NCBI GenBank assembly: GCA_002010975.1
Contig: MTLU01000031.1
Coordinates: 1-33,770 of the forward strand
Direction: 5' to 3'
DNA length: 33,770 nt
DNA from: Candidatus Bathyarchaeota archaeon JdFR-07
GTDB lineage: Archaea > Thermoproteota > Bathyarchaeia > Bathyarchaeales > Bathycorpusculaceae
Made by a program: the position numbers and the translations under genes
The notes under the pieces: generated by a model
Database searches by the model: none
Seen by the model: the letters and a program-made list of their open reading frames with translations, nothing else
What the model was told of the DNA's origin: nothing
In this document: positions 25,176 to 33,770 of the stretch, piece after piece
How the letters are laid out: every line of letters starts with the position of its first letter
How positions within the stretch are numbered: position 1 is the first letter of the stretch

Positions 25176-26279
25176 CTATTCTAGAAGATGTAGGAGCGTA
25201 TGACTTATGTATTCTACTTGCTCTTGTGTGACGTTTGGGTGGACCGGTAGTGAGAACACTTGATTTGCAGCTTTTTCTGTTTCTGGAAGCCGATATTTTC
25301 TGAATTTGCTATAGTAAGGCATCAAATGTATAGGACATCTATAGTAAACCTGAGCGTCAATTCCTTTTTGTCTTAACTTTTCTAGAATTCTGTTTCTTTG
25401 CTGTTTTTCCGCGTTTTTCAATCTTACGGTATATAAGTACCAACTGTGTTGATAACCGTCGGGTTCTTTTGGTAATTCCAGTTTTTCTGCATCTTTTAGA
25501 TTTTCAGTTAATTTTTCCGCGTTTTCCCGTCTTTTAGCCAAGAATCTTGGCAGTTTTTCTAGTTGCACACTTCCTATTGCCGCTTGAATTTCAGGCATGT
25601 GATAGTTATGCCCAAGCATTATAGACTTGTATTTTTCTTTTTCTCCATGGCTTCTCATAAATCGCATTTTTTCAGCCAGTTCATCATCATTTGTTGTCAC
25701 CATTCCCCCTTCGCCTGTCGTCATGTTTTTGCTTGCATAAAAACTCCAGCAGGCAGCATCTGCAAAAGTTCCAAGCGGTTTTTCTTTGTAGCTGGCTCCA
25801 TGAGCTTGCGCCGCATCTTCGATGATTATTAATCCGTGTTTTTCTGCAATTTCTTTTATGGGTTGCATGTTGGCTGGCAAGCCGTAAAGGTGCACTGGCA
25901 TCACTGCCTTCGTCTGGTCTGTTATGCACTTCTCAATTTTCTCAGAAGAAACATTGTATGTTTCCGGATCGATGTCTACAAAAACTGGCTTGGCCCCAAC
26001 AAGGACAACAACTTCTGCCGTTGCTACAAATGTGAAACTAGGCAAAATTACTTCGTCTCCAGTTTTTATGTTAGCTGAAGAAAGGGCTAAATGCAGGGCA
26101 GCTGTACCAGTGTTCACTGCTATCGCATGTTTTGCTCCTACAAATTTTGCAAATTCCTTTTCAAATTTTGTAACCATTGGACCCGCGCCTAGTCCATGGG
26201 TTAAAATTCCGCTTTCTAAAACCTTTACAACAGCTTCTATTTCCTCTTTGCCAATTTGGGGTGCGTTTATAGGAATCAT
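25176..26279 (-). CDS. DegT/DnrJ/EryC1/StrS family PLP aminotransferase
   Basis: GAKHAIAVNTGTAALHLALSSANIKTGDEVILPSFTFVATAEVVVLVGAKPVFVDIDPETYNV; IIEDAAQAHGASYKEKPLGTFADAACWSFYASKNMTTGEGGMVTTND. Confidence 0.96.
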   Translation of the reverse strand: MIPINAPQIGKEEIEAVVKVLESGILTHGLGAGPMVTKFEKEFAKFVGAKHAIAVNTGTAALHLALSSANIKTGDEVILPSFTFVATAEVVVLVGAKPVFVDIDPETYNVSSEKIEKCITDQTKAVMPVHLYGLPANMQPIKEIAEKHGLIIIEDAAQAHGASYKEKPLGTFADAACWSFYASKNMTTGEGGMVTTNDDELAEKMRFMRSHGEKEKYKSIMLGHNYHMPEIQAAIGSVQLEKLPRFLAKRRENAEKLTENLKDAEKLELPKEPDGYQHSWYLYTVRLKNAEKQQRNRILEKLRQKGIDAQVYYRCPIHLMPYYSKFRKYRLPETEKAANQVFSLPVHPNVTQEQVEYISHTLLHLLE

Positions 26280-26362: not shown

Positions 26363-26989
26363 TTAAAGCAGATTTAGGTTTTTAATTCTTCTTAAAAATT
26401 CTTCTATTTCTCTTTCCACTTCCTGTTTTCGTTTAACCAGAAAATCCAGCTCTTCTTTTAATTCTTCAAGCCATTTTTTTATGGTTAATCCGCATTTTTC
26501 TTCGGACATAGGAACCAGATATTGTGAGATATCTTGGGGTGCAGTTTTTCCCAACAGTTCTAAGGGATAGTTTATTTGTTGGAATTTGGAAAAGGGGAAG
26601 AAATGCCTTGTTGATTTAGGTTTCATTAGACATCCGCTTAACCCGGCAGATATCACTTTCTCGATAGGTATTTCGTTGTTTGAATTGCATATGTAACGGT
26701 GAATTCTTCGTGTTCCCACACGTATTTTCGGATTTTTAAAAACATCAATGAGTATCGTGGGAATGAATGTGTAACCTAGATTTTTTAGAGCTAGCCAACG
26801 GTGCATTCCGTCAAGAATCACATGTGTTTTGTTATCTGCTATTATTGGATACTTTAGAAAACCATCGCTAAGTATCTCTCTTTTAAGAAGTTCCAGATAA
26901 AGGGGTGAACCCTTTTCGTGAGGCTTTAATTCGTTAATTGGCATCAAAACAATGTTGGTATGTTTTTCTAGAGAGATTATGGACGTCAC
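26363..26989 (-). CDS. ParB/sulfiredoxin-fold protein of the SerK/SbnI type (putative free-serine kinase) with a C-terminal coiled-coil tail
   Basis: INELKPHEKGS...KYPIIADNKTHVILDGMHRWLALKNLGYTFIPTILIDVF...MKPKSTRHFFPF. The order LKPHE / DGxHRW / xPKxTRHxxPF matches SerK-type proteins as I recall them. C-terminal EELKEELDFLVKRKQEVEREIEEFLRRI. Confidence 0.75.
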   Translation of the reverse strand: MTSIISLEKHTNIVLMPINELKPHEKGSPLYLELLKREILSDGFLKYPIIADNKTHVILDGMHRWLALKNLGYTFIPTILIDVFKNPKIRVGTRRIHRYICNSNNEIPIEKVISAGLSGCLMKPKSTRHFFPFSKFQQINYPLELLGKTAPQDISQYLVPMSEEKCGLTIKKWLEELKEELDFLVKRKQEVEREIEEFLRRIKNLNLL

Positions 26990-27000
26990 CAGATTTCACC

Positions 27001-28365
27001 TTAGCGGTTGAAGGTTGGGATTTCTATTCTCTCTGGTTGGTAATCCACAAGTTTGCCTTCGAGGAATTGTTCGTAAGCTGAAAGATCAAGCAAGCCGTGT
27101 CCGCTATAGTTCATGGCGATAATCTTTTTTTCTCCTGTCTTTTTACATCTTAAAGCCTCGTCTACCACATATTTGAGGCTGTGAGCAGTTTCTGGTGCGA
27201 TTATTAATCCTTCAGTCTGAGCTAAAATTCTAGCTGCTTGGAAAATTTCGGTTTGGTTGTAAGCAACTGAGCGTATATAGCCTTTGTGTATTAGATATGA
27301 TATTGAAGGGGCCATTCCGTGGTATCTTAAACCACCAGCATGGATTGGAGGACAAGCATATCCGTGGCCTATTGTTAACATCTTAAGTAAGGGAGTCATC
27401 TTTCCTGTGTCGCCATAGTCATAAGTGTATTTGCCTTTCGTTGTATGGGGGACTGCCTTAGATTCACATGCCACAAATTTTGTGTCTGTTTTGCCTTTTA
27501 GTTTGTCCATCAGAAAGGGATAGCAGAAACCGGCGTAGTTGGAGCCTCCTCCTATGCATCCGCAGATTACATCAGGGTATTTGTCTATGAATTCAAACTG
27601 TTTTTTTGCTTCTAAGCCTATTATGGTTTGATGCATAAGAACATGATTAAGGACTGAGCCTAGAGAGTATCTTGTGTCTTCATGGGTTAGGGTATCTTCT
27701 ATGGCTTCGCTTATGGCTATTCCGAGTGTTCCAGGGTTTTCAGGGTTTTCTTTTAGGAGTTTTCTTCCAAAATTTGTTTGGTTGCTTGGAGATGGAAACA
27801 TTTCTGCGCCATATATTTGAGCAATGATTCGTCTGCCTGGTTTTTGATAGTAACTTGCTTTAACCATGTAGATTCTGCATTTTAATCCGAAAATGGTGCA
27901 TGAAAAGGCTAGAGCTGTTCCCCACTGGCCTGCTCCTGTTTCTGTTACTAGTCTTTTTATCCCTTGTTCTTTGTTATAGTAGGCTTGAGCAAGAGCAGTG
28001 TTTGTCTTGTGGCTTCCAGTAGGGCTGAAGTTTTCGCATTTGAAATATATTTGTGCTTGGGTTTTCAGATATTTTTCTAATCTTCTAGCTCTATATAGAG
28101 GCGTTGGGCGTGGCAACCTCTGATAGGCGTCAAGTACTTCATCGGGTATTTTGATATAACGTTGTGTGGAAACTTCTTGTTTTATAAGTTCTTTTCCAAA
28201 GATCCTTTCTAGAAGTTGGGGGCTTATGGGTTTTAGAGTTGTGGGATCTAAAGGTGGTGGCAGGGGTTCGGGGAGGTCTGCTTGGATGTTGTACCATTCA
28301 GTTGGGATTTCTTCAGGATTCAGTTGGATAAAGCTTTCATTGTTTTTTGATTTATGCATATACAT
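27001..28365 (-). CDS. trpB2: TrpB2-type tryptophan synthase beta-like PLP enzyme
   Basis: LPEPLPPPLDP...RPTPLYRARRLEKYLKTQAQIYFKCENFSPTGSHKTNTALAQAYYNKEQGIKRLVTETGAGQWGTALAFSCTIFGLKCRIYMVKASYYQKPGRR...CIGGGSNYAGF; the N-terminal extension is typical of TrpB2. Confidence 0.95.
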   Translation of the reverse strand: MYMHKSKNNESFIQLNPEEIPTEWYNIQADLPEPLPPPLDPTTLKPISPQLLERIFGKELIKQEVSTQRYIKIPDEVLDAYQRLPRPTPLYRARRLEKYLKTQAQIYFKCENFSPTGSHKTNTALAQAYYNKEQGIKRLVTETGAGQWGTALAFSCTIFGLKCRIYMVKASYYQKPGRRIIAQIYGAEMFPSPSNQTNFGRKLLKENPENPGTLGIAISEAIEDTLTHEDTRYSLGSVLNHVLMHQTIIGLEAKKQFEFIDKYPDVICGCIGGGSNYAGFCYPFLMDKLKGKTDTKFVACESKAVPHTTKGKYTYDYGDTGKMTPLLKMLTIGHGYACPPIHAGGLRYHGMAPSISYLIHKGYIRSVAYNQTEIFQAARILAQTEGLIIAPETAHSLKYVVDEALRCKKTGEKKIIAMNYSGHGLLDLSAYEQFLEGKLVDYQPERIEIPTFNR

Positions 28366-28472
28366 GTACCTCTATGTGTTTTTTTGTCCATTTATGTATA
28401 TTAGTAGACTTAAAAGTACACGAACATATTTATACTTTATTGCACAAAAACGTACATTAAGGAAAACGCAAT

Positions 28473-28976
28473 ATGTGGAACAATATAAAAAAACACTTAG
28501 AAGCATATCCTGAACGGTTAAAAGTAGCGCGCGTCTTAGTGGAAAACGGACTAAGTGTAAAAGACGGAAAAATTTACCTTAACGAAATTGAGATTCCACC
28601 AATACGCATAGCCCGTGTCGCTGGAGTAGATAGACGCACAGTGAACGAGACTCTTAATACTATAAGATCACATCGGGAGCTTCGAATGATATTTGAAGGA
28701 TTGCGTTCTGCTGGCCATTCATTAAAGGAGATTGCTAGATATTTAGATTTAGGGGTTGTGGAAATAACTCCGGTAGACGCCAGAATTCCTGGCATTCTGG
28801 CGAATTCTGCTATGATCATTGCTAAAAAAGGCTTGAGTATAAGGCAGGCGATAGTGGATGATCCTGAACTTTCTCCTGAACCTAAACTTACGTTGATTGT
28901 TGAAAGAAAAATTCCTGGAGAGCTAGTTCCAGAATTCTTAAAAATAAGTGGAGTAGCCAAAGTTTCGATATACTAG
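28473..28976 (+). CDS. HTH plus ACT-domain regulator of amino-acid metabolism (COG2150-like)
   Basis: N-terminal helical DNA-binding-like region (PPIRIARVAGVDRRTVNETLNTIRSHRELRMIF); C-terminal ACT-like region (GILANSAMIIAKKGLSIRQAIVDDPELSPEPKLTLIVERKIPGELVPEFLKISGVAKVSIY). Divergent from trpB2. Confidence 0.82.
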   Translation: MWNNIKKHLEAYPERLKVARVLVENGLSVKDGKIYLNEIEIPPIRIARVAGVDRRTVNETLNTIRSHRELRMIFEGLRSAGHSLKEIARYLDLGVVEITPVDARIPGILANSAMIIAKKGLSIRQAIVDDPELSPEPKLTLIVERKIPGELVPEFLKISGVAKVSIY

Positions 28977-32945: not shown

Positions 32946-32980
32946 CAGTTTTTAAACTTATAACGTCAACTATTACTCTT

Positions 32981-33770
32981 ATGCTTTATGAAATAGAATG
33001 TTCTAGATGCGGTCACCTTTCTAAAAGTCTTCTTAACTTTAAATGTCCCGAATGTAGCCAACCTCTTTCTATTAAGCTAATGTTTGATTTTGAAATTGAG
33101 AAAATTGAAAGTAACAACTATAGTCTATGGCGTTACTTGAAATTCTTTCCCTATGCAAGAGAAGAAAACATAGTTACCCTTGGTGAGGGATGGACGCCAC
33201 TAGTAAAATTCTCGGAAAATGTCTACTTTAAATGTGAATATTTGAATCCAACGGGTTCTTTCAAAGATAGAGGCTCCACCATGCTGATTTCTGCTTTATG
33301 CGAAAAAATTGATAAAATTAGAGGGTACATATCTGAAGATTCTTCAGGTAATGCTGGAGCTTCTGTTGCTGCATATGCAGCTCGTGCGAAGCTTAAAGCG
33401 AGGATATATGTTCCAGAAAATATTTCTGGGCCAAAATTTAATCAAATAAGGTTTTATGGTGCAGAAGTTTTCAAAGTTTTTGGTTCTAGAAAAAGAGTTG
33501 CGGAAGAAGCACAGAGAAGAGAACATGGAAAAGTATACGTTGGTCATATACTTCATCCATTGTTTAGAGATGGAATAAGAAGCCTTGCTTATGAAATAGC
33601 AGAACAGTTGCATTGGAAGGCTCCTGAGTACGTTTACTTGCCTGTTTCTGCTGGCACGCTGCTTCTAGGCGTTATAGCGGGGTTTAAGCATCTCGCTAAA
33701 TCGAAAGTTATACGTAAAATTCCAAAGATAGTGGCTTGTCAGACACGGCAAGTCTCACCTCTTTATCACA
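32981..33770 (+). CDS. Threonine synthase-like PLP enzyme with N-terminal zinc ribbon, truncated by the window end
   Basis: Own translation from ATG 32981, open to the edge: MLYEIECSRCGHLSKSLLNFKCPECSQPLS...LGEGWTPLVKFSENVYFKCEYLNPTGSFKDRGSTMLISALCEKIDKIRGYISEDSSGNAGASVAAYAARAKLKARIYVPENISGPKFNQIRFYGAEV... Missed by the track because it lacks a stop in the window. Confidence 0.92.
   Translation, partial: MLYEIECSRCGHLSKSLLNFKCPECSQPLSIKLMFDFEIEKIESNNYSLWRYLKFFPYAREENIVTLGEGWTPLVKFSENVYFKCEYLNPTGSFKDRGSTMLISALCEKIDKIRGYISEDSSGNAGASVAAYAARAKLKARIYVPENISGPKFNQIRFYGAEVFKVFGSRKRVAEEAQRREHGKVYVGHILHPLFRDGIRSLAYEIAEQLHWKAPEYVYLPVSAGTLLLGVIAGFKHLAKSKVIRKIPKIVACQTRQVSPLYH

Follow-up and report, generated by a model that had tools for sequence, protein, structure and literature searches.

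Does the serine kinase-like gene that directly follows trpB2 supply TrpB2 with a substrate for tryptophan synthesis? The question is raised by a locus in an archaeal MAG (907,597 bases, 65% complete), from which we analyzed a stretch of 33,770 nucleotides, referred to here as the window. TrpB2 enzymes are reported to depend on O-phospho-L-serine (Sep) for tryptophan synthesis (Busch 2014, as cited in PMC11917138). A 2007 survey described TrpB2 as lacking a conserved gene neighborhood outside trp operons, and P. horikoshii keeps TrpB2 without any other trp gene, a retention that was left unexplained and for which another function was suspected (PMC1854888). Our best reading of the locus, to which we give a probability of roughly 0.7, is that the kinase-like protein and TrpB2 form a module leading from serine through Sep to tryptophan by indole salvage.

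Organization of the locus

The trpB2 gene (27001..28365, minus strand) encodes a TrpB-like PLP enzyme of 454 amino acids. A preliminary description of this DNA placed a SerK-like gene 11 bp past trpB2 on the same strand, and both open reading frames were confirmed; the second gene (26363..26989, minus strand) has a GTG start and encodes a 208-amino acid protein, a predicted compact free-serine kinase of the SerK/SbnI type. The SerK-like reading frame is not a chance ORF because 21 Bathyarchaeia genomes from three families carry orthologues with 53-74% identity. The SerK-like gene and trpB2 are probably in one operon. Divergent from trpB2 is a gene for a TrpY-family transcription regulator (28473..28976, plus strand, 167 amino acids), and 3’ of the SerK-like gene is a DegT/DnrJ/EryC1 aminotransferase gene (25176..26279, minus strand; PF01041, 458 bits). 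The DegT gene is a conserved neighbor in the window’s family only, is missing beside the pair in three loci (L174-L176) and is probably outside the kinase-TrpB2 module. The window had also been described as free of trpA, and trpA was found neither there nor in the 65%-complete source genome. At the end of the window, a PALP-family gene (32979..33770) is truncated by the contig end; its counterpart in G001 (L035) is a threonine synthase. A phage search gave distant matches at most.

The kinase-like protein

LKPHE, DGMHRW and MKPKSTRHFFPF, which the preliminary description had picked out, are present at residues 21-25, 60-65 and 122-133 of the 208-amino acid protein. LKPHE is encoded at 26915..26929, the DGMHRW nucleotide-binding loop, which replaces the ParB GERR box, at 26795..26812, and the PKSTRH motif (residues 124-129), the counterpart of PKTTRH near the C-terminus of Tk-SerK, at 26603..26620, all on the minus strand. 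E25 aligns with Tk-SerK E30, the residue altered in the E30A/E30Q structures 5x0e/5x0g/5x0j/5x0k. Residues E25, D60, G61, H63, R64, T127, R128 and H129 are invariant across the TrpB2-linked and long SerK forms (18 sequences).

The proposed membership in the SerK/SbnI family rather than ParB held in the family search, in which the protein scored 54.7 bits against NCBIfam SerK (E 7.5e-15), 31.6 bits against SbnI and 16.1 bits against Pfam ParB_N, below the gathering cut-off of 26.3. The score of 54.7 bits is far from the 380-bit cut-off of the NCBIfam SerK equivalog (NF053625), and the protein is therefore a compact, distant SerK/SbnI member and not a SerK orthologue. The top matches of a PDB sequence search were SbnI (5uje, E 2.6e-8) and SerK (5x0b, E 8.6e-8), and a separate second match paired PKSTRHFFPF with PKTTRHVLPF of SerK. 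This second match, separate from the first, shows that the protein lacks a middle stretch of about 90 residues that SerK has; the part linking the N-terminal domain to the TRH motif is shorter by about 90 residues than in Tk-SerK and the long archaeal forms.

A confident AlphaFold2 model was built from the 18-sequence alignment (pLDDT 88.9, pTM 0.81). The SerK Glu, the DGxHR loop and the KSTRH motif, whose loss would have spoken against a kinase, are intact in the alignment, and in a structure search the nine best PDB folds of the model were all SerK/SbnI (E 4e-8 to 1e-6, probability 1.00, 223-250 alignment columns, TMq 0.49-0.56), with ParB, Noc and sulfiredoxin folds ranking later, from about E 1e-3 upward (ParB from E 2e-3). 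No HTH domain was matched in the family search, and the model past residue 133 consists of a linker and a single long helix; the neighboring genes are trpB2 and the DegT gene, with no parA beside the SerK-like gene. A ParB partition protein was rejected on the ParB_N score below cut-off, the missing HTH domain and the missing parA neighbor. The long helix (residues 163-206 in the model) agrees with the coiled-coil C-terminal tail noted earlier, which was annotated as a coiled-coil-like helical tail at residues 163-208 (26366..26503, minus strand). The tail is kept in the TrpB2-linked orthologues only and is missing from short and long SerK relatives alike. Taken together, sequence and model predict a compact variant of the SerK/SbnI kind of free-serine kinase. 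An archaeal SerK-like protein has been shown to bind CTP (PMC12704722). Homologues of SerK are reported from all of Pyrococcus.

A protein of this fold might instead be a nucleotide-binding regulator or partner, ParB- or SbnI-like, acting on TrpB2 or the operon with no kinase activity. The ParB fold, the annotation of SbnI as both regulator and kinase, and a predicted C-terminal coiled coil that could bind a partner would all suit such a role. We consider it quite improbable, given that the catalytic Glu and the KSTRH motif are conserved, that an HTH is missing, that a TrpY regulator is already there and that SerK relatives are fused to a Sep-consuming enzyme.

TrpB2 and the divergent trpY gene

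The TrpB2 protein scored 680 bits against TIGR01415 (cut-off 518.85), and its PDB matches included 6hul (5e-148) and 4qys (4e-138). It resembles the TrpB2 structures 4qys, 6hte and 6hul in fold, in sequence and in carrying, within AGGLRYHG, an Arg at the position of a TrpB1 Asp; in an alignment with TrpB1, this residue is R347 and the PLP lysine is K120. Busch 2014 reportedly ties the Sep specificity of TrpB2 to this Arg. The TrpB2s of known structure include that of Sulfolobus solfataricus, and they are not known to have a SerK neighbor. S. solfataricus differs in having a trp operon (PMC1854888). In G001 and G262, the TrpB2 encoded before an orthologous SerK is 57-58% identical and represents another TrpB2 lineage. 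A second, divergent TrpB2 stands alone in G000 and G001 (L040:6857-8158 and L041:3252-4547); it adjoins a conserved gene for a 344-amino acid FEN1-resembling protein and a methyltransferase-like gene.

The product of the divergent gene matched the TrpY family (NF053754) at 188.8 bits, above the cut-off of 180, and the gene is conserved beside trpB2. Between trpY and trpB2 is a conserved block, ATGTACGTTTTTGTGCAATAAAGTATAAATATGTTC (28422..28457, minus strand), which aligned in 13 loci and contains a TATA-like box plus TGTAC/TGYGCA boxes; judged from its sequence, it may be a promoter/operator. The exact TRP box TGTACA was not enriched in the window (2 observed vs 5.9 expected). A similar layout occurs in Methanothermobacter, where a TrpY-family gene is divergent beside the tryptophan synthesis genes of the trp operon (PMC6737238), whereas here just trpB2 and the kinase gene follow. 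A divergent TrpY-type repressor probably controls the pair, and this control may be Trp-responsive. The TrpY homologue of T. kodakarensis does not regulate trp (PMC6737238).

The regulator also bears on which nucleophile TrpB2 uses. TrpB2 might join kinase-made Sep to a nucleophile other than indole and so form another beta-substituted alanine, in keeping with the other function suspected for the P. horikoshii enzyme, which is kept without other trp genes (PMC1854888). The adjoining TrpY-family regulator, the strong match to characterized TrpB2 structures and the Sep-dependent tryptophan synthesis reported for TrpB2 (cited in PMC11917138) make this unlikely.

Recurrence of the pair

Whether the two genes are found together in related genomes was examined in a sample of 91 genomes of the window’s family and in a class-wide search of 257 genomes. 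Family orthologues of the kinase, 61-74% identical, were found in 17 genomes of 12 genera among the 91. Beyond the family, the class-wide search found one more orthologue within the order, in a second family, and three outside the order, all in one family of the class. TrpB2 was directly upstream on the same strand in 20/20 checkable orthologous loci from three families, checkable loci being those whose contig reaches far enough (20 of the 21 orthologue genomes). The gaps between the two genes were mostly -20 to +36 bp, with two exceptions of 64 and 211 bp. These genomes are nearly all draft MAGs, and those that are related do not count as independent cases.

A divergent trpY gene usually accompanies the pair, and it stays divergent from trpB2 in the other families, where the DegT gene is gone. 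Because TrpY persists where DegT is lost, we regard TrpY-TrpB2-SerK as the core of the locus. In a wider phylum sample (200 genomes; 60 neighborhoods), no other SerK relative adjoined TrpB2. A non-orthologous SerK relative was found beside TrpB2 once only, in the 8%-contaminated MAG G276, to which we give little weight.

The pair and loss of the trp pathway

The presence of the pair is associated with loss of trp genes. In the window’s family, trpA was missing in 16/17 pair genomes and found in 56/74 others (Fisher p 1e-7); when the comparison was limited to genomes with completeness of 90% or more and contamination of 5% or less, it was missing in 11/11 pair genomes and found in 38/42 others (p 2e-8). 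These p-values overstate independence because the genomes are related. The same 16 pair genomes also lacked trpC and trpD, with weak trpD matches of 45-58 bits falling below cut-off. The exception, G256 (6% contamination), has SerK beside TrpB2 plus trpA, as does G276 (8% contamination).

The association can also be seen within a single genus, in which G237 has trpA/trpC/trpD and a TrpB2-DegT locus with no kinase, and G238, G239 and G240 have the kinase and no trp genes. In G253, trpA is present and TrpB2 is directly followed by DegT. G241, G244 and G235 also have trpA, and a gene resembling NAD kinase takes the place of SerK between TrpB2 and DegT; these NAD kinase-resembling genes encode proteins of about 375 amino acids (L146:4048-5205, L162:7128-8252 and L164:7142-8281). 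The occurrence of the same kind of TrpB2 without SerK in trpA-bearing genomes speaks against the module, and there the donor must therefore come from elsewhere or serine must be used. Some trp-less genomes of the family carry neither the kinase nor this TrpB2. In one genus, a short SerK gene and the trpA gene of a trp operon are arranged tail-to-tail (L044, L047, L050, L052 and L055); these five loci, where the gene is on the opposite strand to trpA, were not counted as support.

Serine degradation with no tie to tryptophan would be a different purpose for the pair, with Sep passing into glycolysis and TrpB2 acting as a serine/Sep deaminase. Thermococcus SerK does feed serine to central metabolism (PMC5120207), and TrpB2 was once proposed as a serine deaminase; however, characterized TrpB2 proteins deaminate serine poorly (PMC1854888), and the association of the pair with trp gene loss and with TrpY leaves this highly improbable.

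Possible sources of phosphoserine

A canonical phosphoglycerate dehydrogenase (PGDH) was not found in 16/17 pair genomes, where the best PGDH score was below 316 bits. Full-length or high-scoring PGDH (>350 bits) was present in G237, G241, G276, G253 and G172, and in G239, the one pair genome with a full-length SerA. The window’s own PGDH match is a glyoxylate reductase (540.6 bits vs a cut-off of 455), and the copies with similar scores are probably glyoxylate reductases as well. SepRS gave partial matches alone, at 75-91 bits and below the cut-off of 380.65; they look like PheRS. On these partial matches, tRNA-dependent cysteine synthesis was set aside. Since neither high-scoring PGDH nor SepRS was found, the kinase is the most evident Sep source in most pair genomes.

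SerK relatives linked to O-phosphoserine sulfhydrylase

Other SerK relatives are linked to a second kind of Sep-using enzyme, O-phosphoserine sulfhydrylase (OPSS). Short SerK relatives of about 140-200 amino acids are encoded directly upstream of a cysteine-synthase-family gene at nine loci, with gaps of -49 to +44 bp; the best PDB match of one tandem partner is A. pernix OPSS (1wkv, E 2e-56), N-terminal extension included. These tandem pairs, which come from several archaeal families (L051, L053, L056, L063, L065, L069, L070, L072 and L096), are candidate serine-to-cysteine modules. In at least seven genomes of the window’s family, SerK and OPSS form a single-chain fusion of 573-589 amino acids (Bathyarchaeia fusion ORFs of short SerK with OPSS: L115, L116 and L119-L124). 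Of the indirect evidence that proteins of this kind make Sep, this linkage carries the most weight. TrpB2-linked and OPSS-linked SerK relatives fall in different clades (141 columns).

The OPSS N-terminal extension is itself a SerK-like domain (hhalign probability 98.8, E 1.1e-16), but a degenerate one in which the HE and DGxHR residues are gone. It makes up the first ~100 amino acids of L065:5847-7028 and its relatives and the middle part of the fusions. At four loci (L085, L087, L090 and L091), long SerK forms immediately follow genes for SerA-like proteins and class V aminotransferases.

Service to OPSS elsewhere suggests that kinase-made Sep could be combined with sulfide by TrpB2, the pair substituting for cysteine synthase in genomes without CysK. 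The PALP enzymes of G001, a 100% complete genome, are IlvA, two ThrC-like proteins and two TrpB2s, with no cysteine synthase among them, and SepRS was not found, both of which fit this reading. However, six pair genomes (G238, G239, G240, G246, G255 and G256) have a separate SerK-OPSS fusion for cysteine, the TrpB2 still matches the TrpB2 family and adjoins TrpY, and the presence of SerK follows trp gene loss, so that we assign cysteine synthesis by the pair a low probability. The co-occurrence in these six genomes fits an arrangement in which cysteine and tryptophan synthesis each have a Sep supply of their own.

The proposed route from serine to tryptophan

In the serine-to-tryptophan module that we favor, the SerK-like protein would use ADP or ATP to phosphorylate free L-serine, giving Sep, with Glu25 the likely base. 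TrpB2 would then take Sep, and not serine, as the beta-carbon donor and convert Sep and indole to L-tryptophan and phosphate. Indole would be taken from outside, making tryptophan by salvage; because trpA, trpC and trpD are absent, it would have to be imported or come from another source. We infer the kinase activity, the use of Sep by this TrpB2 and indole as the acceptor from the protein families and the gene context, as we do physical contact of the enzymes; contact between kinase and TrpB2 is speculation.

Relation to known systems

SbnI (S. aureus, 5uje; S. pseudintermedius, 6nr6) is a free-serine kinase with a fold in common with the 208-amino acid protein, and it works with SbnA, a Sep-using fold-type II PLP enzyme. 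It differs in being bacterial, in serving a siderophore pathway and in having a longer C-terminal part. Tk-SerK (TK0378; 5x0b-5x0k) shares the fold over most of the chain, the Glu (E30/E25), the DGxHRW loop and PK[ST]TRH, but it has about 242 amino acids, whereas the 208-amino acid protein is without the middle of about 90 residues and has the added coiled-coil tail. Tk-SerK also differs in serving cysteine and serine assimilation, and a TrpB2 neighbor was not reported (PMC5120207). A. pernix OPSS/CysO (1wkv) and its relatives beside or fused with short SerK are alike in coupling a Sep-using PLP enzyme to a SerK-type protein, and differ in their product, cysteine, and in the clade from which their SerK relatives come.

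SerK, SbnI, TrpB2 and OPSS are already known, and what is new is the way in which these kinds of enzyme are combined, together with the compact form of the kinase. The open-access papers searched contained no mention of the SerK-TrpB2 pair, its tie to trp loss, the compact kinase or the SerK-OPSS fusion, which is weak evidence of novelty. A broader reading, to which we give about even odds, is that trp-less archaea have a dedicated SerK-TrpB2 tryptophan route using scavenged indole, and that SerK-type kinases act as a plug-in Sep supply for various PLP enzymes (TrpB2, OPSS) through operons or fusions, perhaps with direct hand-over.

Part of the archaeal ParB-fold annotation hides likely small-molecule kinases, and the relatives described here name many candidate serine kinases for lineages with an unclear cysteine source. 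For TrpB2 itself, a kinase partner that recurs with trp loss offers a concrete test of why the enzyme is retained, namely whether SerK-supplied Sep serves indole salvage.
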